64,000 nucleotides of DNA. Origin: Branchiostoma floridae. Its lineage: Eukaryota > Chordata > Leptocardii > Amphioxiformes > Branchiostomatidae. Position numbers and translations under genes: made by a program. Positions 14,899-60,218 of this stretch are shown here, piece by piece. Below the pieces are notes generated by a model, which searched no databases, was not told the DNA's origin, and saw nothing but the letters and a program-made list of their open reading frames with translations. Each line of letters opens with the position of its first letter. Position 1 is the stretch's first letter. Where the stretch lies: the NCBI RefSeq assembly GCF_000003815.2, contig NC_049981.1, positions 335,122 through 399,121 on the forward strand. The letters run 5' to 3'.

Positions 14899-16917
14899 TC
14901 ACTCCCTCTCTAGCTCCGAGATGTCGTTGAGGGCCGAATCGACCTCGTCGTTTGTGATAGCCGAATTGTAAGCCAAGACTGCGTCGGAGTTTGGCCCCTT
15001 GATCTGCTCGTTGTCGACAGGATTCAGGAACGTCGACCTCTTGAATTGGCCGTTTCTAATAAGACTGAGTAGCGGCCACCTCTTGAACTGACCGTTCAGG
15101 GGGTCTCGTTGGGATGACCGTTTCCCGGGAAAGCCGTCGCCTGATGTATCGCAATTAGGCTCACCAGTACTGCAGCCGTACTGCCTCCTTCGCCCCAGTC
15201 CTGTTAAGTGCAGCCGGTTGCCTTGCCCGTTGGCGACGGGGCTCAGTATTCCAGGAGAAACCTGAAAAAGAAAGTCCGCAACACCGTTCACATTATTATT
15301 CCGCTACCATTGAATGAAAGCTTAGAGTCTACTGATTATTCTAATGTACGTTGTTATATAGTCCAGGTGGGGGATATCGCCGTTCTATGGCTCTTTATAC
15401 AAATTAATGGAAATTAGACGATTACACCCCAGTTTAAAATCAAAGCACCATATGTAGAGTAATGCTTGTCGACATAACATCAAACTTAGTGAAAGTCTCA
15501 AGCCGCAATTTGCAGAAACCCATTGCGTCATAGATACATGCATCATGAAGGAAATTGAATCAAATTAAATTTTAGAAATCTGTGAAAAATCGTGATGTAG
15601 CGTACTCTATATATTCTTCATACACTACCATAGAATTGAAGTTTGAAGTCACACAAACATTTTGAAATATATTTTTGTATATTTACGTTTAAGGTGGGAT
15701 ATTGTCGTGATATAACTCTTAATGCAAATTAATGCAAATTCTGCTACCATGTCCCAGATTAAAATCAAAGCAATATTATTTGAGTAATAATCGCCCAAAT
15801 AACATCAAACTTGTTCAAAGTTAAGTTTTCATTTTCTGACACTTTAAACTGCCAAGCTTGTTTTCAAAGCAACCGTTGTCGTGGGAAAGAACTGCTTCAT
15901 GAATTAAACTTATTAATAATCCGATAATTTGGCTCCAAAATGAATAAAAACATTTGATCTATGTAAAGCTATGGCAAGAGAAGGCATGGTGTATATTTCC
16001 CTTCATACTGTTTTGTAGGGTGAAATATAATCATGACAATAGTAAACTACATGGATAGTCAAAGTGGCGAACCTCGTCATTCTTGGCCTCACTGCTGACA
16101 CCACGATCAACTGCCATGTCGATCTGTATCATGTCAGCCTCCTGATTGTACGTCTTTACCGCTGAAAAAAATCAGTATAGATCAATTAGGTATTCAGCTT
16201 TTGTCATTAATGTTACAATAAAGAACCAACTTCAGTACAATGTCGTAATCTCACGTATATCGAGACAAAAACGTTTGATAGCCATTGTGGAGGTAACAGC
16301 CTACGGCTTCGATCGCCCGACGACCGAAAGGTCTGGGACCGACGGTCATGCGGAATATACCATGTTTTTTGTGTCAAACAACCCAAGAAAAGCAACTTTC
16401 AATGCGAAATGCGCCAGTAATTGGCAAATTGTAACGTTCTAAGTTCTAATGCGGAATCCTGTCCTCGTACGTATTATCGACAACGACACACTCGGCGCAT
16501 TCGAAATGAGTTCCAATGATGTGAGCCCATGTAATAGTAGACCCCCATACGCTTGTGATAATCCAAGTTCGGAACCCCATTGAACGTTATCGCGGCCGAG
16601 CGTACAAATTATTAGAGTACTTTGTATATGCATATGAGACTGACTGTGTTTACTAAAACACTAGAACAAAAAAAGTGTCTACTCTAGTCATTACTGACTA
16701 GATATTAGTAAGCAACAATTACGTATAGACGAAGTGGTTAGGTGGGAAAAGGACAGTACAAACTTTTGGAGGTGGCTTCATGTTCAGTGTAAAGCAATCA
16801 CCGAGAAAACCAAAAAGCCACCGTTAACACGTCTGCATTTACAGTATATCAATACTCACGAAGTCCGGCGGCCTGCATACTACACAGACACAGGACAAAT
16901 GCCACTGCGAACAACAT
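14899..16917 (-). CDS. P1: precursor of a cyclic amidated peptide (3 exons)
   Basis: Exons on the minus strand are 16860-16917 (signal peptide), 16073-16161 (spacer) and 14899-15261 (peptides). Splice sites are GT/AG and phases agree (1, then 0), giving 169 residues. The signal begins MLFAVAFVLCLCSMQAAG. Exon 3 holds RRR followed by QYGCSTGEPNCDTSGDGFP and then G-K-R, a predicted 19-residue peptide. Its N-terminal Gln can form pyroglutamate, two Cys six apart can form a disulphide, and Gly-Lys-Arg is an amidation and cleavage signal. Two further KR-bounded segments end in NGQF, followed by an acidic C-terminal spacer. Unlike P2, P4 and P5 it has a single cyclic peptide. The family is not one I recognise; hormone or neuropeptide function is inferred from precursor architecture. 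Confidence 0.75.
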
Positions 16918-17060
16918 CTTTGCCAGCGCTTTGACAATGTCTCCAATATTTTCTTCTGATGAATCTACCGCTGTCAAATATGCCTCATCATTTATACATT
17001 TTATCTCAAGGCCTTTTCCTGCCAGATGGAAAAGTTCCACGACCTAAGGTTATTGTTGCT

Positions 17061-17068
17061 ACGTCATA
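17061..17068 (-). promoter_or_regulatory. possible CRE/AP-1-like site upstream of P1
   Basis: The minus strand reads TATGACGT(AG) about 145 bases before the P1 start. Similar TGACGCA sequences occur at the same place upstream of P2, P3 and P5, and the site is lost in P4. The flanks are also conserved by duplication, so function is only a possibility. Confidence 0.2.
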
Positions 17069-17287
17069 GACGTGTTTGTTTAACTTTGTGAGCTATTTTA
17101 GTTTCCTTGTCCGGTAGTATTGTTGTCTTATCTTGGATTTGGTGTTATGATTGGTGGTGTGAATCTAGTGGTACAGGTGAACGCCCTTACTGACATGTGA
17201 CAGGTCATTTCTTCAGACCAAGGTAAATTATTATGTTCCAACGTACATCTGACCCTAGTAAAATATGCGAAAACCCAAACGCTCTCG

Positions 17288-17291
17288 CACG

Positions 17292-17328
<37 letters not shown>

Positions 17329-19223: not shown

Positions 19224-21172
19224 TCACTCCCCCTCTAGCTCCAAGATGTCGCTGAGGGCCGAATCGACCTCGTCGTTTGTGATAGCCGAATTGTAAGCCA
19301 AGACTGCGTCGGAGTTTGGCCCCTTGATCTGCTCGTTGTCGACAGGATTCAGAAACGTCGACCTCTTGAATTGGCCGTTTCTAATAAGACTGAGTAGCGG
19401 CAACCTCTTGAACTGACCGTTCAGGGGGTCTCGTTGGGATGACCGTTTCCCGGGAAAGCCATTGCCTGCAGCATCGCAATTAGGGTTATTAAAGCTGCAG
19501 TCGGCTTGCCTCCTTCGCTCCAGTCCCAGCCGGCTGTTCAGGGGGGCTCGCGATCGTTGGGATGACCGTTTCCCGGGAAAGCCATCGCCTATAACATCGC
19601 AATTAACGTCATTTGGGCCGCAGTCGTACTGCCTCCTACGCTCCAATCCCGTTAAGTACAGCCGATTGCCTTGCCCGTTGGCGATGGGGCTCAGTAGTCG
19701 TGGAGAAACCTGAAAAAAGGTCCACCATTCACATAGTCAGTCCGCTACCATGGAATGAAAGCTTGGGGTCTACTGATTATCCTAATGTACGTTTTATATA
19801 GTCCAGGTGGAATATCGTCGATCTATGGCTCTTTATACAAATTAATGCAAATTAGGTGATTATATCCCAGATTAAAATCAAAGCAACGTAACTTGAGTAA
19901 GACTTGTCTAAATAACTTCAAACTTGTGGTGGATAGATACACTGTTATATGGAGTGAAAAATATAACAGTATATTTTCCTCCGACTCCGTACTGTGCTAT
20001 ATTGAGTGAAATATAATTATACCAATAGAAAGCTAAATGGCCGCAAAGTTTTCAAAATGCCGAACCTTGTCATCCTCGGCCTCACTGATGCTGACACCAC
20101 GATCAACTGTCATGTCCATCTGTATCATGTCAGCCTCCTGATGGTACGTCTTCACCGCTGAAAAACAACCACCAGACGTCTTCAGCCATAAATGAGTACA
20201 AATCAATGAGGTATTCAGCTATTGTCATTATTTTATAATGGAGGATTACAATTCAGTACAATTGTGGAGGTAACAGCCTCACCACGGTTTGGATCGCCCG
20301 ACGACCAACTGTTGGAGACCCGACGGCGATGAGGAATACACCGTGTTGTATTTTGTAATGTCATCCCACCCGAGAAAAATGTGTCAAACGTTGAGACAAC
20401 TTGGTGTTTTTTAACAATTTGCAGCAGCAATTCTAACGTCTGAATCCGATATTCGTATTATAGGCAACGCCGATATTGGAAGTTGCTGCACTTGTGTCAA
20501 GCTAGCTTGCGGTTCGAAAGATACTCAACGAATTTCAGAGACAAAGAACGAATTTTCTTTCTTTTTGTGTATTTGTCGTCATCTAAGTCATACTTTTACG
20601 CATTACACAATATCTAAATTATAAAAAAAATCGGAGAAAATGACAAAACAGTGACGCAGTGAACGAACCCCGCAGTGACGCAAGTGTGGTAGGAGCGCAC
20701 CTTTAGTTCGAATTATGCTATGTAAGCCCATGTGATAACAGTTGAACGTCATTCGCTTGTGAGAACCCAATTAATCGCCTGGTTCGGAACACCCGTATTG
20801 AACATTGTCGCGACCAGCGAGTATACTGTATATACAGCGAGTATATTTCAATGAGTATCACTTCTTGATAAAAATGTGATTTGATGTTAAGATGTATCCG
20901 ATCTTCAATTTGTGCACTTTCATCGTAACAGGCCTACTACATATAATATTGCACAATGTATAGTACGTACATGTAACGCATAGACGAAGGGGTTAGGTGG
21001 GAAAAAGACAGAACAAACAATTGGCGGTGGCTTCGTGTTCAGTGTAAAGCAATCACCCAGAAAACCATAAAGCCACCGTTAACACGTCTGCATTTACAGT
21101 ATATCAATACTCACGAAGTCCGGCGGCCTGCATACTACACAGACACAGGACCAATGCCACTGCGAATAACAT
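19224..21172 (-). CDS. P2: precursor with two cyclic amidated peptides (3 exons)
   Basis: Exons are 21115-21172 (signal, MLFAVALVLCLCSMQAAG), 20066-20157 (30-codon acidic spacer ending EAEDDK) and 19224-19709 (peptides and C-terminal spacer). Phases agree throughout, giving 211 residues. Exon 3 has two tandem cassettes, each preceded by ERRR. The predicted peptides are QYDCGPNDVNCDVIGDGFP and QADCSFNNPNCDAAGNGFP, both followed by G-K-R. A linker (SSQRSRAPLNSR) separates the cassettes. A second-position Ala instead of aromatic in the second peptide is unusual. NGQF-KR segments follow, as in P1. Confidence 0.75.
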
Positions 21173-22615: not shown

Positions 22616-23170
22616 TAGAAAACGTTATCAATTGATGTAATATGCAAATGAGGTAGCATATGAAAATGCTCTCAATAGCGCAATCAAGAGAAAGCACTGT
22701 GACACGTCATTGCCATTTGGCGAAGGTTTGGGATATATAAAATCTAGTTTATAACTCATTCTATGAATATGTATTTTGAATGTTCACAACATTGCCCGCT
22801 AATACCATCTATATAATCAAATCAACCTGGCTAAATGCACGGATGGCCATATTAAAATTTTTCTGGATTCTTCTTTGGTTGCAAATTACTGTCAAAATAC
22901 AGATATCACTTTTGATTGGTACAGATACAGCAAACGTCATTTTCCTCTACTCCGCTACCTTCAAAGAATAAATAAAGAACAGTAATTTTTGTACGCACCA
23001 TTCAGTAAAAAAACCAGTAAACCACACTCGGTGAATTCAATGAAGCATGCTTAGCATGTCTGATTTCATTTTCAGACTTTTATTTCATTCGTTTCCATCT
23101 TTCACCTGAACGACTTGACCAATCACAGATGTTGTTTCTGTGACTTTGGTCAGAAGACTTGGGCCAACCA
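22616..23170. other. unique segment between P2 and the E3 relic
   Basis: At 22616 homology to the other peptide-gene flanks ends: aaagttaag is followed by new AT-rich sequence rather than the EGF relic. No coding region or repeat is recognised. Confidence 0.5.
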
Positions 23171-23179
23171 CAGTGATTG

Positions 23180-23280
23180 TTATTGGTTCGGCAGGCAGGT
23201 GTAGCCTCGCTCCCAGCCGTCGGCACATGATTCAGGATTGCACACGGGTGGGTTAGATCCGCACCTGCGCATATTTAAAC
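23180..23280 (-). pseudogene. E3: EGF-gene terminal exon with a 15-bp deletion
   Basis: Reads [21 protein letters not shown], then WERGYTCLPNQ and a stop. Compared with the copies at 52768 and 62118 it lacks TCEAR, which removes one cysteine. The stop and acceptor positions are conserved. No cbEGF exon was found upstream before P3, so this is likely a decayed copy. Confidence 0.5.
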
Positions 23281-23395
23281 CTGTATTTGGAGTGAGACAT
23301 ACTTCTATGTTAGTTTTGACGTTAAAAAGATCGCACGCCCCGTCCTAGTACAAGCTGCAATCCTACAACACTGCTACATTACATCAAAGGCTATC

Positions 23396-23595
23396 TGCTA
23401 AAAAACACTATAATGACATATTCAGGACATAGGATATAAAACCGGACGTCTTCTGCATTACCAAGGTCACACAGCAGAGGGCCCAAAATGACCTCAACTT
23501 TCTTCTTCCAATCAACATTCATCAAAAATAATCCTGAGGTTCCCAAGTTATTCTGGTCACAAATATCCGTCTGTACAGTCAGTTAGACACAGACA
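23396..23595 (-). other. diverged copy of the conserved open block
   Basis: Reads TDICDQNNLGTSGLFLMN, DWKKKV, LGPLLCDLG and DVRFYILCPE in one frame, parallel to 18537-18730. It is followed on the plus strand by an AC microsatellite (about 23592-23625). Confidence 0.3.
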
Positions 23596-24199
23596 CACAC
23601 ACACACACACACACACACACGCGCGCCTGAAAAATACCTACTTTTTTATGAAGGTAATAGTAATCACAGTCAAATTAGAAATTCGTCTATGAAGGTAATA
23701 AAGATGTTTGGTGTAACGCAAACGTAGACAGTACAGAAACTATGAGTACGTCAACTATGAACAGATCAACACAGCACATAGTGGGGCGCTCACACAACAT
23801 TTTATCCAAGGTACTTGAGACCAACACAAAGCAAAATGACAGCTGTGAATTTTGTATGGAGTTTATTTTGCTGAGCTTGAAGTTAATTGAATAACCCGAC
23901 GACGTACCAAGCTGTGGGTACGAGGATGATACCTCACATCCTCATCAAACGCCTTTTCGGCTCACTCCCCCTCTAGCTCCAAGATGGCGTTGAGGGCCGA
24001 ATCGACCTCGTCGTTTGTGATAGCCGAATTGTAAGCCAAGACTGCGTGGGAGTTTGGCCTCTTGATCTGCTCGTTGTCGACAGGATTCAGGAACGTCGAC
24101 CTCTTGAATTGGCCGTTTCTAATAAGACTGAGTAGCGGCCACCTCTTGAACTGACCGTTCATAGGGTCTCGTTGGGATGACCGTTTCCCGGTGTGACAG

Positions 24200-24290
24200 C
24201 GATCTCGCCCCCCCTGCGATCTCGCCCCCCCGGGGGGCGAGATCACTAGCGTTTTCGCCCCCCTTTAGCGTTTTCGCCCCCCCCCCCAGA
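24200..24290. repeat. left subterminal C-rich motif array
   Basis: Several copies of gcgatctcgccccccc and tagcgttttcgcccccc, with one in opposite orientation. Likely a transposase-binding or structure-forming region of the element. Confidence 0.7.
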
Positions 24291-24751
24291 ACATTACTAG
24301 TATTCCTCGGAGGGGTCTTAAGAGCAACTGGTTACTACATATTAGGTGCGCTACCTGGTACTATACTGCACCTGGGAGTAACATAGTTGGTGTGTTACCT
24401 GGTACCTATATGGCACCTTGTTACCGTAAGATGTCATACCTTGTTCGGTGCAAACACTACATTGAAAGGACATTTTTTTTGCAGCTGACATGGCACAGGT
24501 GGCATAGAAAACAATGCTATTGTGAACGTATAAATCAACACCGTCTATGGTACAGAATACGTCAGCTATATGTTTTCAATTTGTCACAGTATTTTCTTTC
24601 TTGTGTAGAAAACATTTCCAAAGCACTAAGAAAAACACAATTGAATAATAGTTTCTCATTATAAACACTATCTACGCACAAGTTCATATACCTGTTGCTA
24701 AATGCTACAAAAAACTGGTAAAGTACCAGTCTTAAGAAACACGGGTAAAAC

Positions 24752-24893
24752 ACCAGTTCCTAAATACTAGAAAAACAGTCATATTGGAGGTGAAGATATC
24801 AATAGGGTAGGTGCATATAACGTACCAGTTTCTAAATACTAGAAAAACAGTCATATTGAAGGTGAAGATACCCCTTGGCCAGGTGCATACACC
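24752..24893. repeat. two tandem 71-bp repeats inside the P3 element
   Basis: Units at 24752-24822 and 24823-24893 share accagttyctaaatactag, aaaaacagtcatattg and aggtgaagata. Confidence 0.85.
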
Positions 24894-25214
24894 AAAATGT
24901 GCATTATTCTAATGAATACCTTATTTGCATAATCAATAAAGACATGACATAGTTCTTTTGTGGTCAATTCATAATAGAGACTTCAATACAATGAAATATA
25001 TCTCATGTCGAGACTCAGGTACATGCAATAAAGGGAATACAAGGGACCCAACCCTCCTTGTCTGAAACAAGTTCAACTATCTTGTTGCCATGTACTTACG
25101 TTAATATTGATACTATGGATGGAGTTATGTATCAAACTCGTGTACTTATATCATTCTGAAACTGCATTGTGTGATTTATACCAATCAACTTCTAAAATAT
25201 CATGTAAACCCGTT

Positions 25215-25370
25215 TTTTTTGGGGGGGGGCGAAATCGCTAAAGGGGGGCGAGGTAGGGGGGCGAGATCACTAACCGGGGAGGGCGAGATCGCTAGTGATT
25301 TCGCCCCGGGGGGGCGAGATCGCTAGTGATTTCGCCCCCGGGGGGGCGAGATCACGGGGGGGCGAGAACG
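25215..25370. repeat. right subterminal G-rich motif array
   Basis: About six copies of ggggggcgagatcgctag-type motifs, the inverse of the left array. Runs of 5-9 G at short spacing could form G-quadruplexes. Confidence 0.75.
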
Positions 25371-27659
25371 CTGTCACACCGGGAAAGCCACTGCCTGGTG
25401 GATCGCAAATTGGGTCATTTGCGCTGCAGCCGAACTGCCTCCTGCGCCCCAGTCCCGTTAAGTACAGCCGACTGTTCAGCGGGGCTCGCGATCGTTGGGA
25501 TGACCGTTTAGACAGAGGACACATGGGAAAGGCAGTACATACTGAATCGCAACTAACGTCGTTTCCGGTGCAGTTGGGAAACTGCCTCCTGCGCCTAAGT
25601 CCTGTTAAGTGCAGCCGATTGCCCTGCCCGTTGGCGATGGGGCTCCGTATTTCTGGAGAAACCTGTAAGAAGTCCACAACAACCTTCAATTACTCCGCTA
25701 CCATGGAATGAAAGCTTGGGGTCTACTGATTATTTTTATGTACGTTGTTATATAGTCTAGGTGGGATATCGTCGTTCTATGGCTCTTTAAATTAATGCAA
25801 ATTAGACGATTACACCCCAGCTTAAAATCAAAGCACCATATGTAGAGTAATGCTTGTCGACATAACATCGAACTTAGTGAAAGTCTTAAGCATCAATTTA
25901 CAGTAACCCATTGCATCATAAATATGGCACATATATCATGAAGGAAATTGAATCAAATTAAATTTTAGAAATCTGTGAAAAATCGTGATGTAGCGCACTC
26001 TATATATTCTTCATACACTAACATTGGAGTCTCCCAAACAGTTTGAAATATATTTTTGTACGTTTTAGGTGGGATATTGTCGTGATATAACTCTTAATGC
26101 AAATTAATGTAAATTCTGCTACCATGTCCCAGATTAAAATCAAAGCAACATAATTTTAGTAATAATTGCCCAAATAACATCAAACTTGTTCAAAGTCAAG
26201 TTTTCATTTTCTGAAACTTTAAACTGCCAAGCTTGTTTTCAAGTTTTCAAAGCAACCGTTGCCGAGGGAAAGAACTGCTTCATGAATTAAACTTATTAAT
26301 AATCCGATGATTTAGCTCCAAAATAAAAAAAAAAAATTAATCTATGTAAAGCTATGGCAAGAGAAGGCATGGTGCATATTACCCTCCATACTGTTTTGTG
26401 GGGTGAAATATAATCATGACAATAGTAAACTACATGGATGGTCAAAGTGCCGAACCTTGTCATCCTCGGCCTCACTGCTGACACCACGATCAACTGTCAT
26501 GTCGATCTGTATCATGTCATCCCCCCGATGGTACGTCTTTACCGCTGAAAAAATACAACATCAGATGTCTTCCGTCATAAATCAGTATAGATCAATTAGG
26601 TATTCAGCTTTCAGTCATTAATGTTACAATAAAGAACCAACTTCAATACAATGTCGTAATCTCACGCATATCGAGACAAAAACGTTTGATAGCCATTGTG
26701 GAGGTAACAGCCTACGGCTTCGATCGCCCGACGACCAAAAGGTCTGGGACCGACGGTCATTCGGAATATACCGTGTTTTTTTGTGTCAAACAACCCAAGA
26801 AAAACAACTTTCAATGCGAAATGCGCCAGTAATTGGCAAATTGTAACGTTCTAAGTTCTAATGCGGAATCCTGTCCTCGTACGTATTATCGACAACGACA
26901 CACTCGGCGCATTCGAAATGAGTTCCAATGATGCTATGTGAGCCCATGTAATAGTAGACCCCCATACGCTTGTGATAATCCAAGTTCGGAACCCCATTGA
27001 ACGTTATCGCGGCCGAGCGTACAAATTATTAGAGTACTTTGTATATGCATATGAGACTGACTGTGTTTACTAAAACACTAGAACAAAAAAAGTGTCTACT
27101 CTAGTCATTACTGACTAGATATTAGTAAGCAACAATTACGTATAGACAAAGGGATTAGGTGGGAAAAAGACAGTACAAACTTTTTGGAGGTGGCTTCATG
27201 TTCAGGGTAAAGCAATCACCGAGAAAACCAAAAAGCCACCGTTAACACGTCTGCATTTACAGTATATCAATACTCACGAAGTCCGGCGGCCTGCATACTG
27301 CACAGACACAGGACCAATGTTACTGGAAACAACATCTTTGTCATCGCTTTGACAATGTCTCCAATATCTTCTTCTGATGAATCTACCTCTATCATGTATT
27401 CACCATCATTTATACTTTTTTCTCAAGGCCTTTTCCTGCCAGATGGTCCATTTCCACGACCTAAGGTTATTGTCGCTGCGTCACAGACGTATTTGTTTAA
27501 CTTTGTCAGCTATTTTAGTTTCCTTGTCCGGTAGTATTGTTGTCTTATCTTAGATTTGATGTTATTATTGGTGGTGTGAATCTAGTGGTACAGGTGAACA
27601 CCCTTGCTGACATGTGACAGGTCACTTCTTCAGGCCCAGGTAAATTATTATGTTCCGAC

Positions 27660-28170: not shown

Positions 28171-28209
28171 TATTCTGACCACAAATATGCGAAAACCCAA
28201 ACGCTCTCT

Positions 28210-28219
28210 CACGCACACA

Positions 28220-29639: not shown

Positions 29640-30670
29640 TCATCAATCAAATTTCTTCTTCTTAGGTAACGTCAAAAATTAAGACAAAGGAGCTTTCCGG
29701 GTCCCAAACTTTTCGGTGTTACTAACGTAATTTTTAAGTCTTGTAGATAATTAACGAAGGAATTGTAAGCAATCAAATTTATTTTTACCCTCTGTTGATG
29801 GATTATTCTATAAAATTCAAGTCACAAAAGTAACGCACACTTTGTGATATTGACGCTATGACAGTTGGAAGTTTTGAATATAAGGTTTAAAATCAAGATA
29901 AGGACCTTTCCGGGACCTCGACTTTTCGGTGTTGCTAACATAGTTTACAAGCCTTGTAGATCATTAACGAAGTAATTTTTAGCAATCAAATTTCTTTTTA
30001 CTCTCATTTGATGGCGTCTCCTACATAATTCAAGTGACAAAAGCAACGCACACTTTGTGATATTGATGCTCTGACAGTTGAGGTTTTTGAGTATAACGTC
30101 TAAAATCAAGATAAGGACTTTTCCGGGACCTAGACTTTTCGGTGTTACTAACATAATTTTCAAGCCTTGTAGATAATTACAGAAGTAATTTTTAGCAATC
30201 AATTTTCTATTTACTCTCTCTTGACAGTTTCTTTTATAAGATTCAAGTGACAAACGAAACGCACACATTGTGATTTTTGACGCTATGACAGTTGAAAGTT
30301 TTGAGTATAACGTTTAAAATTAAGATAAGGACCTTTCCGGGACCCCGACTTTTCGGTGTTACTAACATAGTTTTCAAGCCTTAGATCATTACAGAGGTAA
30401 CTTTTAGATATCAAATTTCTTTTTACTCTCTCTTGATGGTGTCTTGTACATAATTCAAGTGACAAAACTAACGCACACCTTGTGATATTGACGCTATGAC
30501 AGATGAAAGTTTTGAATATAACGTCTAAAATCAAGATAAGGACCTTTCGGGACCCCGACTTTTCGGTGTTACTAACATAGTTTTCAAGCCTTGTAGATCA
30601 TTACAGAGGTAACTTTTAGCAATCAAATTTATTTTTACTCTCTCATGACGTCTTGTAGCAAGGTAATGAA
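29640..30670. repeat. 212-bp tandem repeat, five copies
   Basis: The marker ggaccttt.ccgggacc..gacttttcggtgtt recurs at about 29689, 29904, 30115, 30329 and 30540 (spacing 211-215). Other shared phrases are caagccttgtagatcattac and aagtgacaaaa.taacgcac. Minus-strand frames of 83-107 codons across it are not conserved between units. Confidence 0.9.
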
Positions 30671-34895: not shown

Positions 34896-35478
34896 GTGAG
34901 TTTAAGTATCATTTACGCAATTCTAGTTATCAAATCAAATCATGGCAACCATTTGCATTTATCTATATGGACTGATCGTACTCAACCGTCAAGTTCAGAG
35001 ACCGGAACCTCAGTTTAAACTCTATAGACCCCGGACGCCCCTGGCATGGACGGTGCGTTTTAGTTCCTTTTCTTTAGTTTATGTATAATACAACTACAGC
35101 GCCCCCTCCCCCGTTACCGTTACCCGGAGCGGCCATCTTCCACCGACCGGTGAGACCGTTACCCTTTGTTTATTGCCTTATATCATGAATTCCATATTCA
35201 TCACGGTTGTTTGTGGATGTGAAGAGGTGTCGGTAGAGTGAGAAAAAAATAAAACGAATATAAATAATCGGAGCTCTGAAAATGGCCGCTCGTCCACCCG
35301 GGATGACCTCTGACCTGACCACATACCATATAATGCAGCATGTGACATTTTTCATTCACACTGCCTTAAAGAAATAGTCTCTCGGAATAGTCTCTCGAGA
35401 TCAGGAGACTGGACCCGAGACTTGGGTTGATCTATTAAACCATTGCAATTATTTACAAATAAACATGTTTCCCGGCAG

Positions 35479-39669: not shown

Positions 39670-39773
39670 GTGAGCTCTCCACACTTAAAAATATGGTTAG
39701 AATTTCACAAGAATCTCCAAAACGATTGCTTCGTGCGCAGTATTTACGATATATCGTAACAATATGTCCACAG

Positions 39774-39996
39774 TATGTTACTATCTACGGGACAGAGGAA
39801 CAAGCTACAGGGGCCTTGCAAACCGGAACAACTCCTGTCAGTTCTGGACATCTCAGTACCCCCACCCCCATAACCACACTCCCCAGGCCTACCCATCGGC
39901 AGGGCTGGAGCGAAACTACTGCCGGAACCCGGACGGGAAGGACAGGCCGTGGTGCTACACAAACAACCCGCTCATCAGGTGGATGTACTGCGAATG
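39774..39996 (+). CDS. mosaic receptor exon 7: kringle 1, interrupted by a LINE
   Basis: Kringle landmarks are all present: CYYLRDRGTSYRG, SCQFW, GLERNYCRNPDG, PWCYTNNP and RWMYC. Directly after RWMYC the LINE's 3' repeat begins and gives E-stop (TGA at about 39994-39996). The target duplication ctgcga (39988-39993 and 46413-46418) implies that the uninterrupted exon ended ..TAC TGC GAC G|gtaact at 46420. That is 222 nt, phase 1-1, matching both neighbours. The sixth kringle cysteine is not encoded in this exon. The mutant allele would make a secreted truncated protein, or skip the exon in frame. Confidence 0.8.
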
Positions 39997-40131
39997 AATG
40001 AATGAATTTATTGCTCAACAATCGCACAGGGTACAATGTATGGCAATTAATAACAACTAATAACTATACAGACAGTAGTACTAAGAGGCTACATACAAAA
40101 CAACAACAAAACATTATCGATAATAGTACAG

Positions 40132-43872: not shown

Positions 43873-44053
43873 GAAAAAATGTTAAGAGCAATAATTACGT
43901 ATGTTGTTTATCATATGTATTAAGGTTTACGTATGAATGAGTACCATATATGTCTATATTTTGGTGGTTATATGAAATAATCAAATGTTCTATGTAAAGT
44001 AGAGTAATAGAAGGGTTCACTTTCCTTTTGGTCAGCGCTGGTACACTGAGTAT

Positions 44054-46246: not shown

Positions 46247-46374
46247 CCTTACTATGTGGTTACTAAACTGTATATCCGGTACTCAAAAAACTCAAAATCT
46301 ATGATAAAAACAATCGTAATCCGCTCTAAAACATCTTCACTTACGGAGCCCTGGTGATAGTGCACCCGTACCGT

Positions 46375-46386
46375 CCGCCATCTTGG
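46375..46386 (-). promoter_or_regulatory. YY1-like site in the LINE 5' UTR
   Basis: The plus strand reads CCGCCATCTTGG, i.e. CCAAGATGGCGG on the LINE strand, about 27 bases from its 5' end. This matches the YY1 consensus core (AAGATGGCGGC) seen near the start of some LINEs. Confidence 0.5.
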
Positions 46387-46418
46387 AAACGCCTTCGCGA
46401 TGATGTGTTCGCCTGCGA

Positions 46419-46420
46419 CG
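46419..46420 (+). other. displaced last two bases of mosaic receptor exon 7
   Basis: After the right-hand target duplication the host resumes as CG|gtaact, a usable donor. Counting these two bases gives exon 7 its phase-1 end. Confidence 0.5.
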
Positions 46421-46816
46421 GTAACTTAAACGTTTGTGCTCTTTAACGAAAAAAAATCTTATAACACACAAAAACGTATATTACCGATCCTGTCAGTTAT
46501 GCTTCATACTTACATTGACTAACATCACATATGATACTTTTTTCAACTTGACGTGACTCCGCCAAGCTACATGTTTGTATGTAGGTAAACTACACTTATG
46601 TAATGTTTACGTTTGTTTCCGCTCTTCCAATTTGATAAAAAAACTAGAAGACCGATAGACACAAATATGCATTGAATAACATAAACATTTAAAAACTACT
46701 ACACCTTTCTAACTCTGCATATAGGTGAGATTAGTATGATTATAGCACGTGCAGATTAGTCGAAAGGGTAAGTTTTATGTTGCCCTCCTCCCAGCCCAAA
46801 TGTTTTCTATTTTCAG

Positions 46817-46880
46817 CCCTACCGACACGTTGCTTCTACTCTATCGACAATGAAAGAAGCTACGCAGGGCGGATTAACAG
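46817..46880 (+). CDS. mosaic receptor exon 8: kringle 2, N-terminal part
   Basis: Acceptor ttttcag, donor AACAG|gtacaa, phase 1-2. Reads LPTRCFYSIDNERSYAGRIN, the C-x8-S-Y-x-G start of a kringle, like kringle 1. Confidence 0.8.
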
Positions 46881-47004
46881 GTACAATTTCTAGAACAATT
46901 TAGGGGCTACAAAATATCAACACCAGAGCATTTTACATCAAAAGTGCTACATTGGCTAAACCAAAACGCTCACAGATGGACGAAAGAACCTCCGAAACGG
47001 AGAA

Positions 47005-47104
47005 NNNNNNNNNNNNNNNNNNNNNNNNNNNNNNNNNNNNNNNNNNNNNNNNNNNNNNNNNNNNNNNNNNNNNNNNNNNNNNNNNNNNNNNNNNNNNNNN
47101 NNNN
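47005..47104. other. assembly gap, 100 N
   Basis: A run of exactly 100 N, conventionally a gap of unknown length. It abuts a tandem repeat, which probably caused the break. Confidence 0.98.
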
Positions 47105-47611
47105 AGGAGACCGGGTGTGTCAGAGATGGGACTCCAGTCCACAGTCATCCCCACACACCACAGGCTCTTTACACGTTTATATACCGTATATCTGTACAGG
47201 GCAGGGGACCGGGTGTGTCAGAGAAGGCACTCATAGTCCCCCCACAGTCATCCCCACACACCACTGGCTCTTTACACGTTTATATACCGTATGTCTGTAC
47301 AGGGCAGGAAACCGGGTGTGTCAGAGATGGGACTCCCAGTCCCCCCACAGTCATCCCCACACACCACAGGCTCTTTACACGTTTATATACCGTATATCTG
47401 TACAGGGCAGGGGACCGGGTGTGTCAGAGAAGGCACTCATAGTCCCCCCACAGTCATCCCCACACACCACTGGCTCTTTACACGTTTATATACCGTATAT
47501 CTGTACAGGGCAGGATACCGGGTGTGTCAGAGATGGGACTCCCAGTCCCCCCACAGCCATCCCCACACACCACAGACTCTTTACACGTTTATATACCGTA
47601 TATCTGTACAG
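47105..47611. repeat. tandem ~105-bp duplications of a kringle half-exon and its acceptor
   Basis: Five units precede the real exon 9. Each contains cgtttataccgta, tatctgtacagggcagg and accgggtgtgtcagaga. Two versions alternate: one keeps the coding phrase cagagatgggactcccagtc, the other reads cagagaaggcactcatagtc and has lost CQRWDS. The order is A, B, A, B, A, then exon 9, suggesting a ~210-bp higher-order unit. Each unit retains a potential splice acceptor. Confidence 0.85.
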
Positions 47612-47802
47612 GGCAGGATACCGGGTGTGTCAGAGATGGGACTCCCAGTCCCCACACAGCCATCCCCACACACCACAGGCTCATCCTGATGCAGGCCTGG
47701 AGGAGAACTTCTGTCGTAACCCTGACAACAAGGAGCGGCCCTGGTGCTACACAACGGATGAGTCGCGGAGGTGGGACTACTGCGACGTGATGGAGTGTGC
47801 TG
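47612..47802 (+). CDS. mosaic receptor exon 9: kringle 2, C-terminal part
   Basis: Acceptor atctgtacag, donor GCTG|gtaaga, phase 2-1. Contains [36 protein letters not shown] and DVMEC, so kringle 2 has all six cysteines. It is the last of the tandem units and the only one continuing into the kringle C-terminus. Confidence 0.85.
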
Positions 47803-48475
47803 GTAAGAGGACTTGAGCAAATGTAGCGCATAGGACAGTTGGAAAGATCACAAGAGTTACCAAGGCCGAGGAACGATGTTTAATCTATACTGCCACATCC
47901 TCGCCAGTCTGTCCCGGCCCTTCATTCTATCTGATCTGCTAATCTTATAGTGTTTCTTCCTTTTATCGCTGAGCTTGGTGCCGACATGATCAAAACAGAT
48001 TCTCACCAGATGTGTTTGACATTCACTCACTCGTTCAGTCACTCGCTAATGATGGACTCTCACGATTACTTACTCAATTATCATTTGACAGGTCACTGAT
48101 TATGTTATGAGTAGAACCAGCCAACTCCCCTTGTCTCTACCGTCATGAATATTTGGTCAGATGTTTCTTATTTTCGGTCCATTTCTTACAAACCTAGCCG
48201 GGTGTATTAGTTCACATGTGGAGATATACATGTGCTCAATTGTACGATTATAAAGCATCATTTAAAGAATCGTCATCATCACCCGTCAACTAAAGATGGG
48301 TAAAGTGTATCGTGAATGCTCAAACTGGTAAAGTGTATCGTGAATGCTCAAACTTTACGATACTAAGGAAAATACATTCTCTCATTGGTGCACAACAAAG
48401 ACGAAAGTTTGGGACGTTTTGTCTTACCGGTAATCTTCAATTCGTCTTAATTATCTTTCTCATATCCTTTCTTAG
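47803..48475 (+). other. intron 9 of the mosaic receptor
   Basis: No additional exon seen. A short direct repeat (taaagtgtatcgtgaatgct twice, about 48300-48355) is present. Confidence 0.6.
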
Positions 48476-48590
48476 ATCCTTTCTTACTGCGCTGCAATGA
48501 AGAGTACACCTGTTTCGAGCAACAACAGCATAGACTCTGTTATTGTGACAACGACTGCACCTTTTTCGGCGACTGCTGCGAGGACTTCAT
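48476..48590 (+). CDS. mosaic receptor exon 10: somatomedin B domain
   Basis: Acceptor ttcttag, donor TTCAT|gtaagt, phase 1-2. Reads RCNEEYTCFEQQQHRLCYCD followed by NDCTFFGDCCEDF. The C-x-C-D-x-x-C-x5-D-C-C-x-D-F pattern is diagnostic of somatomedin B. Confidence 0.9.
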
Positions 48591-48644
48591 GTAAGTAGAT
48601 CTGTACTAGCCTGACTAAACCGTGCTTCCAGTAGCCCTCATAGG

Positions 48645-48694
48645 TGTGTGTGTGCGTGGGGGGGGGGGGTGAATTTGTGTGAGTGTATAATGTT

Positions 48695-48744
<50 letters not shown>

Positions 48745-48869
48745 CGTGTTAACGTATGTGTGTGTGTGTGTGTATGTATGTGTATATGCGTGTGTTTGAT
48801 TATACATGTATGTGTGTAAGTGTGTGTTTGTGTGTATGTGTGTGTGTGTGTATACGTGTGTGTGTATAT

Positions 48870-48906
<37 letters not shown>
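48645..48906. repeat. long (TG)n microsatellite in intron 10
   Basis: About 260 bases of TG repeats with TA and CG interruptions, preceded by a G run. Confidence 0.95.
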
Positions 48907-48907
<1 letters not shown>

Positions 48908-49241
48908 CGGGGGTGGCGCATTGACTACTACAAAATGTTAATCTCATTATTATATGAATAATTGCATGAACTCACTATTTACGATGGAAATACACGATAA
49001 CATCATTGCTCACTATGGTGACAGAGAATCCTCACCTCTTATTGGACTAAAGTTATAAGGTGTATAAGTTTTGGAGATAACCAGTAATTTTGATAGTCAT
49101 AGCATAAGCTGTTACGAGGACATATTACTACGTAGAAGTTGGGATGGAGACCCGAACGACCCTCACCCACCCATCAAGATTGGGTTACTGTAATCATTGT
49201 AGATCACTACTTAGTATACGCCTTTTCATCACCCGCCTCAG

Positions 49242-50580
49242 TGAAAGCAGCTCAGCTCAAACACCATCTGATCATCATCGTCTCAAATGGAAGTGCGTGC
49301 CAGGCTTTTCTAAGGGAGGTGATAGTAACCCTGCAGAGAAAGAGTCCTATTGGATGGTTGCTGACTGCCCTGGCGAGTGGACAGATGACGTCACAAGAGA
49401 TCAGTGTTTAAAACAAGCGGACCCCTTCAACCCGAGTGACCTGGTCTACCGGATGCCCGTGGAAGATAATTCGGGACGTGTTCAAGCTGGATCAACTGCA
49501 GTCCCCTATAGAAACATATTCTGTGCAATTTGTAACAATGTCTCTCTGGCACATGTGTCTGTTTGGGAGTCCCAAGTTGAGTGTTCTGGACTACTTAACT
49601 TGTCTTCACATGCTCATAAAGATTCACAAGTGTACAACAGAATCATTGACAGTGGCAAAGATTGCTTCGGAACGAACAGGCTTGTATTTATACCATCAGA
49701 CACGTCGCATGTGAGGCGATGTCTCTGGATCCCGACCGAGGTTTCCAATGAGAATTGTGACTTCGCTGCCTGTAGGTCCTATAGTTTTCCGGTAGACAGC
49801 GGATATAAGACTTACAAAAATGTACACTGTGCTCTTTGTGAACGACTTTCAATGGCGGCAACCACAAATCTATTCTGTAAATATACTTTTGTCATATCAC
49901 GCCTTTACTGCCTCTCGAACTGTCCCTTAACACTTTCACTATCTAATCTGTTCAACTTTAATGCCTATGGGGGTGATGAAAACAGTCCCAATCAGTGTCC
50001 CTCTGGCACTTTATACGACCCGTTTGCAGACACATGTAGGATCTCTTCGTCCGCCCACAGAAGCGGTGGCTCATCAAACATGACTAGCCCCTTACAAAAC
50101 TGTAGCGAACTCGCTTTGACGTTCACGGCTGAAGAGTTCCGTGTCCTTCCCAATGGTAGTGTCCACTTGTTGAGTTCTAACGTGTCCTGCCCAGCAGAGC
50201 AGGTGGCCATACTGAACGCAACAGCATCCATCTGTGGGGAGTGCATACTGCAGTACTTCACAAACTACACGAAAGAAGCCGACAGTTGGGGAGCTGGCCA
50301 GGTCTGGCTAACCGTTGGTCTCGTGATAGCGTCTGCCGTAGTCGTGTTTGCTTTTGTGGTTTATATTGTCAGGTCTGGTGGACTGTCTGCGATCAAGGCA
50401 CGCTTGGGCTTGGGTGGACCTGAGCAGAACAATGGAGCAACCACTTCTGCCAGCCATTTGCCGACCGCCGCAGGGGGAACAGATGCGACGGTAGGTGGAA
50501 CCGGCTCTGCTAAAGAAATACGCATGGCAACATTGGACGCTGTGGACGTAGAGGGGAACATCGGAGCATCAGGACAGTGA
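49242..50580 (+). CDS. mosaic receptor exon 11: Cys-rich ectodomain, TM, tail
   Basis: The acceptor cgcctcag at 49241 supplies the one base that completes the codon split by exon 10, giving ..DFIESSS. The ectodomain has paired-cysteine motifs (YRNIFCAICNNV, YKNVHCALCERL), a WMVADCP segment and about a dozen N-glycosylation sequons. This arrangement often follows somatomedin B domains in cephalochordate surface proteins, as far as I recall. A single span (VWLTVGLVIASAVVVFAFVV, about residues 883-905) is followed by a ~65-residue Gly/Ala-rich tail without an obvious signalling motif. It is therefore not a seven-pass receptor. Stop at 50580. Confidence 0.85.
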
Positions 50581-54076: not shown

Positions 54077-56023
54077 TCACTCCCCCTCTAGCTCCAAGAT
54101 GTCGTTGAGGGCCGAATCGACCTCGTCGTTTGTGAGAGCCGAATTGTAAGCCAAGACTGCGTCGGACTTTGGCCCCTTGATCTGCTCGTTGTCGACAGGG
54201 TTTGGGAACGTCGACCTCTTGAATTGGCCGTTTCTAATAAGACTGAGTAGCGGCCACCTATTGAACTGACCGTTCAGGGGGTCTAGTTGGGATGAACGTT
54301 TCCCGGGAAAGCTATTGCCACCAGCATCGCAATTAACGTCACTTGGGCTGCAGCCGTACTGCCTCCTTCGCTCCAGTCCCAGCCGGCTGTTCAGGGGGGC
54401 TCGCGATCGTTGGGATGACCGTTTTCCGGGAAAGCCACCGCCTTGTACATCGCAATCAGCATCATTAGCGCTGCAGCCGTACTGCCTCCTACGCTCCAAT
54501 CCCGTTAAGTAAAGCCGATTGCCTTCCTCGTTGGCGATGGGGCTCAGTAGTCGTGGAGAAACCTGAAAAAAGGTCCACCATTCACATAGTCACTCCGCTA
54601 CCATGGAATGAAAGCTTGGGGTCTACTGATTATTATAATGTACGTTTTATATAGTCTAGGTGGAATATCGTCGATCTATGGCTCTTTATACAAATTTAAT
54701 GCAAATTAGGCGATTATATCCCAGATTAAAATCAAAGCAACATAACTTGAGTAAGACTTGTCTAAATAACTTCAAACTTGTGGTGGATAGATACACTGTT
54801 GTATGGAGTGAAAAATATAACAGTATATTTTCCTCCGACTCCGTACTGTGCTATATTGAGTGAAATATAATTATAAAAGCTAAATTGCTTTTCAAAATGC
54901 CGAACCTTGTCATCCTCGGCCTCACTGATGCTGACACCACGATCAACTGTCATGTCGACCTGTATCATGTCAGCCTCCTGAAGGTGCGTCTTTACCGCTG
55001 TACAAAAGAAAACATCAGATATCTTCAGTGATAAATTAGTACAAATCAATGAGGTATTCAGCTATTGTCATTCTTTTATAATGGAGGATTACAATTCAGT
55101 ACAATTGTGGAGGTAACAGCCTCACCACGGTTTGGATCGCCCGACGACCAACTGTTGGAGACCCAACGGTGATGAGGAATACACCGTGTTGTATTTTGTA
55201 ATGTCATCCCACCCGAGAAAAATGTGTCAAACGTTGAGACAACTTGGTGTTTTTTAACAATTTGCAACAGCAATTCTAACGTCTGAATCCGATATTCGTA
55301 TTATAGGCAACGCCGATATTGGAAGTTGTTGCACTTGTGTCAAGCTAGCTTGCGGTTCGAAAGATACTCAACGAATTTCAGAGACAAAGAACGAATTTTC
55401 TTTCTTTTTGTGTATTTGTCGTCATCTAAGTCATACTTTTACGTATTACACAATATCTAAATTATAAAAAAAATCGGAGAAAATGACAAAACAGTGACGC
55501 AGTGAACGAACCCCGCAGTGACGCAAGTGTGGTAGGAGCGCACCTTTAGTTCGAATTATGCTATGTAAGCCCATGTGATAACAGTTGAACGTCATTCGCT
55601 TGTGAGAACCCAATTAATCGCCTGGTTCGGAACACCCGTATTGAACATTGTCGCGGCCAGCGAGTATAATGTATATACAGCGAGTATATTTCAATGAGTA
55701 TCACTTCTTGATAAAAATGTGATTTAATGTTAAGATGTATCCGATCTTCAATTTGTGCACTTTCATCGTAACAGGCCTCCTACATATAATACCGCACAAT
55801 TTATAGTACGTACACGTAACGTACAGACGATGGGTTAGGTAGGAAAAAGACAGAACAAACAATTGGCGGTAGCTACATGTTCATGGTAAAGCAATCACCG
55901 AGAAAACCATGAAGCCATCGAAAACACGTCTGCATTTACAGTATATCAATACTCACGAAGTCCGGCGGCCTGCATACTACACAGACACAGGACTAATGCC
56001 ACTGGAAACAACATCTTTGCCAT
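54077..56023 (-). CDS. P4: precursor with two cyclic amidated peptides (3 exons)
   Basis: Exons are 55957-56023 (signal; MAKMLFPVALVLCLCSMQ, alternative Met at 56014), 54906-54997 and 54077-54562. Phases agree. Predicted peptides are QYGCSANDADCDVQGGGFP and QYGCSPSDVNCDAGGNSFP, each preceded by ERRR and followed by G-K-R. One downstream cleavage site has decayed: QFNR replaces QFKR before WPLLSL. The LVNGQ region upstream reads NEEGNR instead of NGQGNR. Introns resemble those of P2 and P5, not of P1, although P1 occupies the equivalent position in the left cluster. Confidence 0.75.
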
Positions 56024-57389: not shown

Positions 57390-57453
57390 TCGTCGGTACA
57401 TGATTCAGGATCGCACACGGGTGGGTTTGATCCGCCCCTGTGCATATTCAAAC
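57390..57453 (-). pseudogene. truncated EGF-gene terminal exon (relic between P4 and P5)
   Basis: Almost identical to 18344-18407, with the same truncation point after aaagttaag. It shows that the relic was present before the P1-P2 / P4-P5 block duplicated. Confidence 0.55.
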
Positions 57454-57589
57454 CTGTATATGGAGTGAGACATAGTTCTATGTTAGTTTTGACGTTAAAC
57501 AGATCGTACGCTCCATGCTGACACACGCTGCAATCCTACAAAATTGCTACATTACATCAAAGGCTATCTGCTAGAAAACCACTATGCCA

Positions 57590-57775
57590 TGTTCAGGACA
57601 TAAGATATAAAACCGGACGTCATCTGCAGTACCAAGGTCACACAGCAGGGGGCCCAAACTGATCTTGACTTTCTTCTTCCAATCATCATTCATCAAATTT
57701 TTTTCTGAGGTTCCCAAGTTATTCTGGTCAAAAATATCCGTCTGTACAGTTTGTAAGTCAAACACACACACGCAC
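57590..57775 (-). other. conserved open block, copy in the right cluster
   Basis: Near-identical to 18537-18730 (TDIFDQNNLGTSEKNLMN against TDICDQNN..; one Cys to Phe change). Confidence 0.3.
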
Positions 57776-58268
57776 GCCTGAAAAATACCGATATTTTTTA
57801 AGGTATTAGTAATCACAGTTAAATTAGAAATTTGTCTATGAAGTTAATAAGATAGAATTAATTTACATAAAAGTCACATCATTTCCTTGAAAAAATTAAA
57901 CAGTTCACGACCTTGCGCGTGCAACGGGAAATGTAGGTTATGCCTACAGGACATTCAGTGTCTGAAAATATATTTGGGTTATAGGCAGAATGATCACATG
58001 AATAACAAAGATATCTGGTGTAACGCAAACGTAGACAGCACAGAAACTATGAGTACGTCAGCTATGAACAGATCAACACAACACACAGTGGTGCGCTCAC
58101 ACAACTTATGATCTAAGGTAATTCAGACCAACACAAAGCAAAATGACAACTGTGAATTCTGTATGGAGTTTATTTTGCTCAGCTTGAAGTGAATTAAATA
58201 ACCCCAGGAAGTACCAAGCGTAGAGTACGAGGATGATACCTCACATCCTCATCAAACGCCTTTTCGGC

Positions 58269-60218
58269 TCACTCCCCCTCTAGCTCCAAGATGTCACTGA
58301 GGGCCGAATCGACCTCGTCGTTTGTGATAGCGGAATTGTAAGCCAAGACTGCGTCGGAGTTTGGCCCCTTGATCTGCTTGTTGTCGACAGGATTCAGAAA
58401 CGTGGACCTCTTGAATTGGCCGTTTCTAATAAGACTGAGTAGCGGCCACCTCTTGAACTGACCGTTCAGGGGGTCTCGTTGGGATGACCGTTTCCCGGGA
58501 AAGCCATTGCCTCCAACATCGCAATTAACGTCATTTGGGCTGCAGTCGTACTGCCTCCTTCGCTCCAGTCCCAGCCGGCTGTTCAGGGGGGCTCGCGATC
58601 GTTGGGATGACCGTTTCCCGGGAAAGCTATTGGTTGTTACATCGCAATTAACGTCATTTACGCTGCAGCCGTACTGCCTCCTACGCTCCAATCCCGTTAA
58701 GTACAGCCGATTGCCTTGCCCGTTGGCGATGGGGCTCAGTAGTCGTGGAGAAACCTGAAAAAAGGTCCACCATTCACATAGTCAGTCCGCTACCATGGAA
58801 TGAAAGCTTGGGGTCTACTGATTATCCTAATGTACGTTTTATATAGTCCAGGTGGAATATCGTCGATCTATGGCTCTTTATACAAATTAATGCAAATTAG
58901 GCGAATATATCCCAGAAGTTAAAATCAAAGCAACATAACTTGAGTAAGACTTGTCTAAATAACTTCAAACTTGTGGTGGATAGATACACTGTTATATGGA
59001 GTGAAAAATATAACAGTATATTTTCCTCCGACTCCGTACTGTGCTATATTGAGTGAAATATAATTATAACAATAGAAAGCTAAATGGCCGCAAAGTTTTC
59101 AAAATGCCAAACCTTGTCATCCTCGGCCTCACTGATGCTGACACCACGATCAACTGTCATGTCCATCTGTATCATGTCAGCCTCCTGATGGTACGTCTTT
59201 ACCGCTGAAAAACAACCACCAGACGTCTTCAGCCATAAATGAGTACAAATCAATGAGGTATTCAGCTATTGTCATTCTTTTATAATGGAGGATTACAATT
59301 CAGTACAATTGTGGAGGTAACAGCCTCACCACGGTTTGGATCGCCCGACGACCAACTGTTCGAGACCCGACGGTGATGAGGAATACACCGTGTTGTATTT
59401 TGTAATGTCATCCCACCCGAGAAAAATGTGTCAAACGTTGAGACAACTTGGTGTTTTTTAACAATTTGCAACAGCAATTCTAACGTCTGAATCCGATATT
59501 CGTATTATAGGCAACGCCGATATTGGAAGTTGTTGCACTTGTGTCAAGCTAGCTTGCGGTTCGAAAGATACTCAACGAATTTCAGAGACAAAGAACGAAT
59601 TTTCTTTCTTTTTGTGTATTTGTCGTCATCTAAGTCATACTTTTACGTATTACACAATATCTAAATTATAAAAAAAATCGGAGAAAATGACAAAACAGTG
59701 ACGCAGTGAACGAACCCCGCAGTGACGCAAGTGTGGTAGGAGCGCACCTTTAGTTCGAATTATGCTATGTAAGCCCATGTGATAACAGTTGAACGTCATT
59801 CGCTTGTGAGAACCCAATTAATCGCCTGGTTCGGAACACCCGTATTGAACATTGTCGCGGCCAGCGAGTATACTGTATATACAGCGAGTATATTTCAATA
59901 AGTATCACTTCTTGATAAAAATGTGATTTAATGTTAAGATGTATCCGATCTTCAATTTGTGCACTTTCATCGTAACAGGCCTCCTACATATAATACTGCA
60001 CAATTTATAGTACGTACACGTAACGTACAGACGATGGATTAGGTAGGAAAAAGACAGAACAAACAATTGGCGGTGGCTTCATGTTCATGGTAAAGCAGTC
60101 ACCGAGAAAACCTTAAAGCCACCGTCAACACGTCTGCATTTACAGTATATCAATACTCACGAAGTCCGGCGGCCTGCATACTACACAGACACAGGACCAA
60201 TGTTACTGGAAACAACAT
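58269..60218 (-). CDS. P5: precursor with two cyclic amidated peptides (3 exons)
   Basis: Exons are 60161-60218 (signal, MLFPVTLVLCLCSMQAAG), 59113-59204 and 58269-58754. Predicted peptides are QYGCSVNDVNCDVTTNSFP and QYDCSPNDVNCDVGGNGFP. The ERRR and G-K-R processing sites are intact. The first peptide loses the Gly-rich stretch (TTNSFP). The donor after exon 2 is AAG|gtttgg rather than gttcgg. This copy is nearly identical to P2 across exons and introns. Confidence 0.75.

Follow-up and report, generated by a model that had tools for sequence, protein, structure and literature searches.

The amphioxus Branchiostoma floridae carries, within a 64,000-nucleotide window of contig NC_049981.1 (positions 335,122 to 399,121 of the forward strand, assembly GCF_000003815.2), five minus-strand genes, here termed P1 to P5, that form one family and encode predicted secreted precursors of small cyclic peptides. 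Each gene has one exon for the signal peptide, one for a pro-region and a third that holds spacers, the peptide cassettes and a C-terminal tail. The mature peptide is the fast-evolving part of these precursors, the reverse of the usual neuropeptide precursor, in which the peptide is the conserved part. The family occupies positions 14899-60218 of the window, where an initial annotation made from the sequence had placed it; that the peptides outpace the introns is an addition to that annotation. Peptides that diverge several-fold faster than introns, next to a tail and spacers with few changes, disfavour a conventional conserved neuropeptide. We see about an even chance that the array is a lineage-specific family whose secreted, ring-closed, amidated products are held diverse by selection; for these, outward-facing roles such as defence, mucus or pheromone signalling would be more likely than that of one conserved hormone.

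Divergence of the mature peptides

End-to-end alignment is possible for P2, P4 and P5. Between P2 and P5 the introns differ at 30 of 1312 positions, the tail at 5 of 228 and the spacers at 0 of 144, whereas the peptides differ at 21 of 114; the expectation for a neuropeptide, a mature peptide more conserved than its spacers, is thus reversed. P2 and P4 differ at 45 of 1298 intron, 4 of 144 spacer, 11 of 228 tail and 25 of 114 peptide positions, P4 and P5 at 31 of 1298, 4 of 144, 14 of 228 and 17 of 114, respectively, and P1 and P3 at 70 of 1478 intron positions against 14 of 57 in the comparable peptide. Across these four gene pairs the peptides exceed the intron rate 5-8 fold (Fisher p between 1e-11 and 8e-7). 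To allow for possible movement of cassettes, they were also paired in the most favourable way regardless of position, which leaves 19/114 differences for P2/P5, 25/114 for P2/P4 and 17/114 for P4/P5, or 6-7 times the introns (p from 1e-11 to 4e-8).

P2/P5 differences end at the peptide borders, the spacers before the first peptide and between the peptides being identical. When the two units are aligned in full (4370 columns), the peptides account for 21 differences in 114 columns versus 123 in 4256 for all else; a single further stretch of 57 columns, near 60600-60656, is equally different, with 10 changes, and its translated frames resemble a simple repeat. In exon 3 of P2, P4 and P5, variable sites number 31 of 114 inside the cassettes versus 19 of 372 outside (p 6e-10). 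The pooled proportion of nonsynonymous differences (pN) is 0.221 among the eight cassettes that fit a common pattern (28 pairs, within-gene pairs included) versus 0.091 in the spacers, 0.055 in exons 1 and 2 and 0.035 in the tail (five genes, 10 pairs).

Six positions of the 19-residue peptide, Q1, C4, C11, D12, F18 and P19, are invariant in all eight of these cassettes. Such a fixed core, set in textbook precursor anatomy (a signal peptide, peptides in tandem, cleavage sites of three or two basic residues and a Gly for amidation), is also what a conventional lineage-specific neuropeptide or hormone family would present, one whose paralogous ligands act on a single G-protein-coupled receptor or a small number of them and need only the core Cys, Asp and Phe-Pro-amide for binding, leaving the ring free to vary. 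Relaxed constraint, however, should not carry a sequence beyond the neutral rate, and here the peptides exceed the introns in four gene pairs and the spacers change less than the peptide does. We keep a conventional hormone family as a tentative alternative, less probable than the favoured account.

Selection, mutation and cassette exchange

Selection for mutual difference among the peptides is indicated by several counts. In P2/P5 about 18 nonsynonymous changes fall in 91.8 sites versus 2.1 expected at the intron rate. In exon 3 of P2, P4 and P5, variable sites at codon positions 1 and 2 relative to position 3 stand at 25:6 in the cassettes and 8:11 elsewhere (Fisher p 0.012). Codon model M2a improves on M1a, with twice the log-likelihood difference at 36.97 on a FastTree tree and 50.96 on a star tree, and selects codons 6, 13 and 14 under both. 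Such selection would therefore yield a diverse ligand set rather than one conserved hormone.

A number of observations weigh against the idea that selection keeps the peptides diverse. The pairs P2/P5, P2/P4 and P4/P5 share genes and are non-independent, with P1/P3 as a separate pair, and the nearest single cassettes are much closer: the first of P2 and the second of P5 (P2.1/P5.2) differ at 4 of 57 bases, 3.1 times the introns (p 0.049), and P4.2/P5.2 at 5 of 57, 3.7 times (p 0.015). Exon 1 differs at 5, 4 and 3 of 58 positions in P2/P5, P2/P4 and P4/P5, that is 2-4 times the introns (p 0.014, 0.15 and 0.17), and because this signal exon also outpaces the introns the backbone is not uniformly slow. 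Taken alone, the 25:6 ratio is indistinguishable from 2:1 (p 0.13). The codon program was self-written, cassette exchange violates its assumptions, and from only 19 codons M2a fits a ratio of nonsynonymous to synonymous rates (omega) of about 45, a figure that cannot be taken at face value; the single-ratio estimate under M0 is 1.62, not clearly above 1 (log-likelihood -301.95 vs -302.72). P2/P5 cassettes also carry 2.8 synonymous changes where 0.5 are expected at the intron rate (P 0.01-0.09), and within cassettes the pooled pN of 0.221 is nearly matched by a synonymous proportion (pS) of 0.218. Finally, typical antimicrobial peptides are unlike the acidic products predicted here, whose net side-chain charge runs from -2 to -4.

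Because pN and pS are so similar, a different cause has to be considered: the cassette may be a mutational or recombinational hot spot, subject to error-prone copying or to conversion from unseen donors with no selection for diversity, or the cassettes may be old and the backbones homogenised. Several features agree with this. Excerpts of a study of conotoxins describe raised nonsynonymous (Dn) and synonymous (Ds) divergence in the mature-peptide exon, for the five superfamilies tabulated with exon 3, and suggest error-prone polymerases (PMC3862624). In the P cassettes the 32 third bases of codons 6, 9, 13 and 14 are without exception A or T. Moreover, the introns of P1 and P3 are about 30% apart from those of P2, P4 and P5 (poorly alignable sequence), whereas three tail comparisons across the groups give 5, 8 and 11 differences in 219 bases, and in exon 1 P3 lies 1 base in 58 from P5 and 6 from P1, so that exons look exchanged or homogenised across the groups. 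Mutation alone would nevertheless have to halt at the peptide borders of P2/P5 next to identical spacers, leave the six core residues untouched and produce an excess at codon positions 1 and 2 relative to the remainder of exon 3. We regard a mere hot spot, or old cassettes without selection, as rather unlikely.

At the same four codons the third-base differences among copies are A-T only; over the whole P5 frame, A or T fills about 37% of third positions.

Cassettes have probably moved between copies, as suggested by the second cassette of P5, which is 4 bases from P2.1, 5 from P4.2 and 9 from its own neighbour P5.1. A partly homogenised backbone combined with peptides kept apart by selection would be the simplest joint account.

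Predicted peptides and their processing

The initial annotation had counted nine peptides, eight of them on a 19-residue pattern and seven of these followed by an intact G-K-R, and the same numbers were obtained here. P1 contributes one peptide and P2, P3, P4 and P5 two apiece; the pattern Q-[YFA]-x-C-x6-C-D-x5-F-P fits all except the first peptide of P3, so that each fitting product has a C-x6-C ring with eight residues after it. Arg-Arg-Arg precedes each of the eight fitting cassettes, and the one G-K-R that is lost, after the second peptide of P3, is lost to an insert. In the four intact precursors, all Cys past the signal peptide fall within cassettes. The motif C-x6-C-x5..8-G-[KR]-[KR] occurs seven times in the six frames of the window; in 40 mononucleotide shuffles it averages 0.225 occurrences and never exceeds 2. 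Overall, the layout is that of a neuropeptide precursor, with a signal peptide, peptide copies between basic sites, an amidation Gly and no known globular domain. A structure model of exon 3 built from four sequences is compatible with this layout but of low confidence and uninformative (mean predicted local distance difference test score, pLDDT, 39.8).

The earlier description of cyclic, amidated precursors is borne out for the signal peptide, the Cys pair, the Gln after tribasic sites and the G-K-R; cyclisation, pyroglutamylation and amidation are predictions from these motifs. The signal peptide would route the precursor into the secretory pathway, where convertases are expected to cleave at Lys-Arg and behind the Arg-Arg-Arg sites. 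From the known enzymology of comparable sites, the new N-terminal Gln would become pyroglutamate, the two Cys would close a ring around six intervening residues and Gly would be converted to an amide on Phe-Pro. For peptides processed in this way the calculated [M+H]+ values are 1914.691 for P1, 2007.785 and 1921.723 for P2, 1883.696 and 1897.712 for P4, and 2042.822 and 1980.749 for P5. With cassettes diverging as seen in the DNA around a fixed core, and spacers and tail little changed, selection would hold the peptides apart while some cassettes were exchanged among copies. The outcome would be a diverse set of stable extracellular ligands directed at changing targets, be they microbes, predators, parasites or mates.

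The tail (14899-15126 in P1 and its equivalents) contains two short segments, for example WPLLSLIRNGQF, that end in Asn-Gly-Gln-Phe (NGQF) before Lys-Arg; in P4 the Lys-Arg of the first segment is Asn-Arg. These segments may possibly be additional, non-amidated companion peptides.

Gene models and the broken copy

P1, P2 and P3 form a first group and P4 and P5 a second, about 27 kilobases (kb) further on. In each gene, exon 1 has 58 nucleotides (nt) and exon 2 has 89 or 92, a variation of one in-frame codon, while exon 3 of the intact genes has 363 or 486; the 123 base pairs (bp) by which exon 3 of P1 is shorter than that of P2, P4 and P5 are exactly one unit, the cassette-to-cassette spacing there. 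The introns are GT...AG, the first in phase 1 and the second in phase 0, and the second donor (GAG or AAG followed by GTTCG or GTTTG) is a weak consensus match. Spliced frames are open over 169 residues in P1 and 211 each in P2, P4 and P5. TATAAA begins 79 nt upstream of the ATG, and AATAAA lies 94 nt downstream of the stop, in five of five genes. Gene models, splice sites, signal peptides and these flanking signals agree in upholding the predicted three-exon genes for secreted precursors. A tblastn search of the window with the family, P3 being represented by the portion up to its first stop, found no extra copy; its single weak match (44117-44209, E up to 1) sits in the repetitive part of the second frame of a long interspersed nuclear element (LINE) and was left uncounted.

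The tandem family of five thus stands, although only four of its members look intact and functional because P3 is broken by the insert. This transposon-like element lies between the Gly and Lys of the second peptide, at the amidation and cleavage site, and the P3 frame reaches a stop within it; the remaining parts of the gene are as in the other copies. The damage to P3 is what a dead or unexpressed repeat array would predict. Four of the five genes, however, are open with intact signals, and their exons vary by one in-frame codon (exon 2) or by the exact 123-bp unit (exon 3), which makes such an array barely credible.

Table 1. Coordinates of the P1-P5 genes and of their predicted products in the window.
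Feature	Position	Strand	Remark
P1 exon 1: signal peptide MLFAVAFVLCLCSMQAAGL, donor C/GTGAGT, phase 1	16860..16917	-	residues 2-13 mean hydropathy 2.77
P1 exon 2, pro-region	16073..16161	-	gene model
P1 exon 3, with spacer, a single cassette, tail and stop	14899..15261	-	gene model
P1 peptide QYGCSTGEPNCDTSGDGFP, then GKR	15127..15183	-	
P2 exon 1, signal peptide	21115..21172	-	gene model
P2 exon 2, pro-region	20066..20157	-	gene model
P2 exon 3, two cassettes and tail	19224..19709	-	gene model
P2 peptide 1 QYDCGPNDVNCDVIGDGFP, then GKR	19575..19631	-	
P2 peptide 2 QADCSFNNPNCDAAGNGFP, then GKR	19452..19508	-	
P3 exon 1, signal peptide	27278..27335	-	gene model
P3 exon 2, pro-region	26456..26544	-	gene model
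P3 exon 3, interrupted by insert	23962..25662	-	gene disrupted in this assembly
P3 atypical first peptide region	25510..25584	-	four Cys, no Gly before Lys-Arg
P3 second peptide QFGCSANDPICDPPGSGFP	25381..25437	-	G-K-R split by insert
Transposon-like insert, 1187 bp	24192..25378	.	terminal inverted repeats of ~23 bp with one mismatch; flanked on each side by CCGG
P4 exon 1, signal peptide	55957..56014	-	gene model
P4 exon 2, pro-region	54906..54997	-	gene model
P4 exon 3, two cassettes and tail	54077..54562	-	gene model
P4 peptide 1 QYGCSANDADCDVQGGGFP, then GKR	54428..54484	-	
P4 peptide 2 QYGCSPSDVNCDAGGNSFP, then GKR	54305..54361	-	
P5 TATAAA	60292..60297	-	79 nt upstream of ATG
P5 exon 1, signal peptide	60161..60218	-	gene model
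P5 exon 2, pro-region	59113..59204	-	gene model
P5 exon 3, two cassettes and tail	58269..58754	-	gene model
P5 peptide 1 QYGCSVNDVNCDVTTNSFP, then GKR	58620..58676	-	
P5 peptide 2 QYDCSPNDVNCDVGGNGFP, then GKR	58497..58553	-	
P5 AATAAA	58169..58174	-	94 nt downstream of stop

Relation to known peptide families

Membership in a named family is unsupported by any of the sequence comparisons made. Pfam (hmmscan with the four precursors, E up to 1) returned nothing for P1, P2 and P5, and for P4 it gave two models, both unrelated and below cut-off; the bacterial and archaeal NCBIfam library returned nothing for four exon 3 products, and Rfam nothing at gathering score within the window. Sequence searches of the PDB gave chance-level matches only (two at E 0.47 and 0.59, one at 2.4, four at 0.16 to 1.1), and none of 13 pattern matches in viral contigs was confirmed. 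None of six peptide strings occurs in the open-access library searched, and the family is not named in the titles and abstract starts of the papers on amphioxus peptides listed from it, although an earlier listing, for instance in the amphioxus peptide catalogue of Mirabeau and Joly (2013) cited in PMC5818035, is possible. The initial statement that the peptides could not be matched to the calcitonin, CCAP, vasotocin or somatostatin families accordingly holds in the libraries tried, which offered no named family.

Among single-ring peptides, those of the CCHamide, allatostatin-C and elevenin type have one disulphide ring, with C-x6-C spacing in CCHamide and allatostatin-C; on comparison by eye, the P peptides share no evident residues with these outside the Cys.

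The nearest of the known ring-peptide families is the calcitonin/CGRP type, of which the P family might be a divergent member. An N-terminal Cys ring and tandem genes are common to both, and the Phe-Pro-Gly-Lys-Arg of seven of the eight cassettes predicts the C-terminal Pro-amide with which, in excerpts of PMC6283891, three tandemly encoded B. floridae calcitonin-type peptides end. The amphioxus calcitonin-type peptides described there have 31-33 residues and a central helix, whereas the P peptides have 19, eight of them after the ring, and differ as to helix and ring size; together with the Pfam results, this makes descent from the calcitonin type very unlikely. Vasopressin/oxytocin precursors, given for starfish in excerpts of PMC4772807 as a C-x4-C nonapeptide with neurophysin, were rejected as relatives on account of the C-x6-C ring and of intact precursors free of Cys outside signal peptide and cassettes.

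By pattern, the P family works like two known systems. Excerpts of PMC3862624 describe conotoxin precursors with a conserved signal and pro-region and a diverse mature peptide, which in most superfamilies are encoded by three exons roughly matching signal, pro and mature parts, the first intron being in phase 1. The P genes share the three-exon layout, the phase 1 first intron and a fast mature part with fixed Cys set in a slower backbone, except that exon 1 is not slower than the introns. They differ from these toxins in a ring closed by two Cys, with predicted ends of the pyroglutamate and Phe-Pro-amide types; each precursor holds one or two peptides and a long C-terminal tail, and the second intron is in phase 0. 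No sequence match between the two was found: no conotoxin superfamily model appeared in Pfam at E up to 1 and no significant chain in the PDB, but short peptides are poorly served by these searches and the two were not compared directly. We know of no venom organ in this animal.

The second system is the nlp-29 cluster of Caenorhabditis elegans, six genes for secreted candidate antimicrobial peptides whose "neuropeptide-like" name is historical; excerpts of PMC2453101 attribute their diversification after intragenomic duplication to natural selection and link the cluster to enhanced pathogen resistance. It resembles the P array in being a small gene cluster for secreted neuropeptide-like peptides and offers a precedent for a defence role, yet its peptides are rich in Gly and Tyr, whereas the P peptides are predicted to be ring-closed, acidic and amidation-tagged.

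It is tempting to speculate that this chordate-type invertebrate possesses a conotoxin-like library of neuropeptide-style precursors, in which gene conversion unifies the backbones while 57-bp cassettes diversify and swap, so that every genome would hold its own shifting set of ring-closed, amidated ligands for defence or recognition; we offer this only as a possibility that is more doubtful than not.

Assembly and surrounding sequence

The P2 and P5 units match at 95.6% over 4.4 kb, and this pair may be a haplotype artefact of the assembly. The second group as a whole is unlikely to be the other haplotype of P1-P2: the introns of P4 and P1 differ by about 31%, only one match of at least 300 bp to the first group lies to the left of P4 (52671-53009 vs 23083-23405, 79%), and kringle domains stand on both sides of the N gap at 47005-47104.

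Plus-strand frames at 35463-50580 may perhaps belong to one modular gene: they contain two kringle domains, three LDL-receptor class A matches, of which two pass the cut-off and one does not, and a weak match of the F5/8-type C kind; the N gap and the LINE lie within this interval, the latter with an endonuclease and reverse transcriptase at 40135-43881 and another long frame at 44054-46282, both on the minus strand. Elsewhere in the window there are a tandem duplication of about 2.2 kb at 4487-9002 (pieces 90% and 95% identical), a tandem repeat array at 29667-30649 (period about 214 bp, about 86% identity) and minus-strand leucine-rich-repeat frames at 11042-12505 and 13447-13980, the first with a repetitive IQPYAVxYxDV tail.

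Implications

The combination of a stable precursor with a fast-changing active peptide, which the array seems to show, is familiar from cone-snail venoms and not from hormones. Neuropeptide prediction that relies on precursor anatomy alone may confuse fast-evolving effector peptides with hormones. If these precursors do yield peptides, an animal that belongs to no recognised venomous group would possess rapidly diversifying secreted peptides with hormone-grade processing. The array would then offer a compact system for cassette-limited diversification among near-identical neighbours, and processing of the neuropeptide kind would be tied to a role in an arms race or in recognition.

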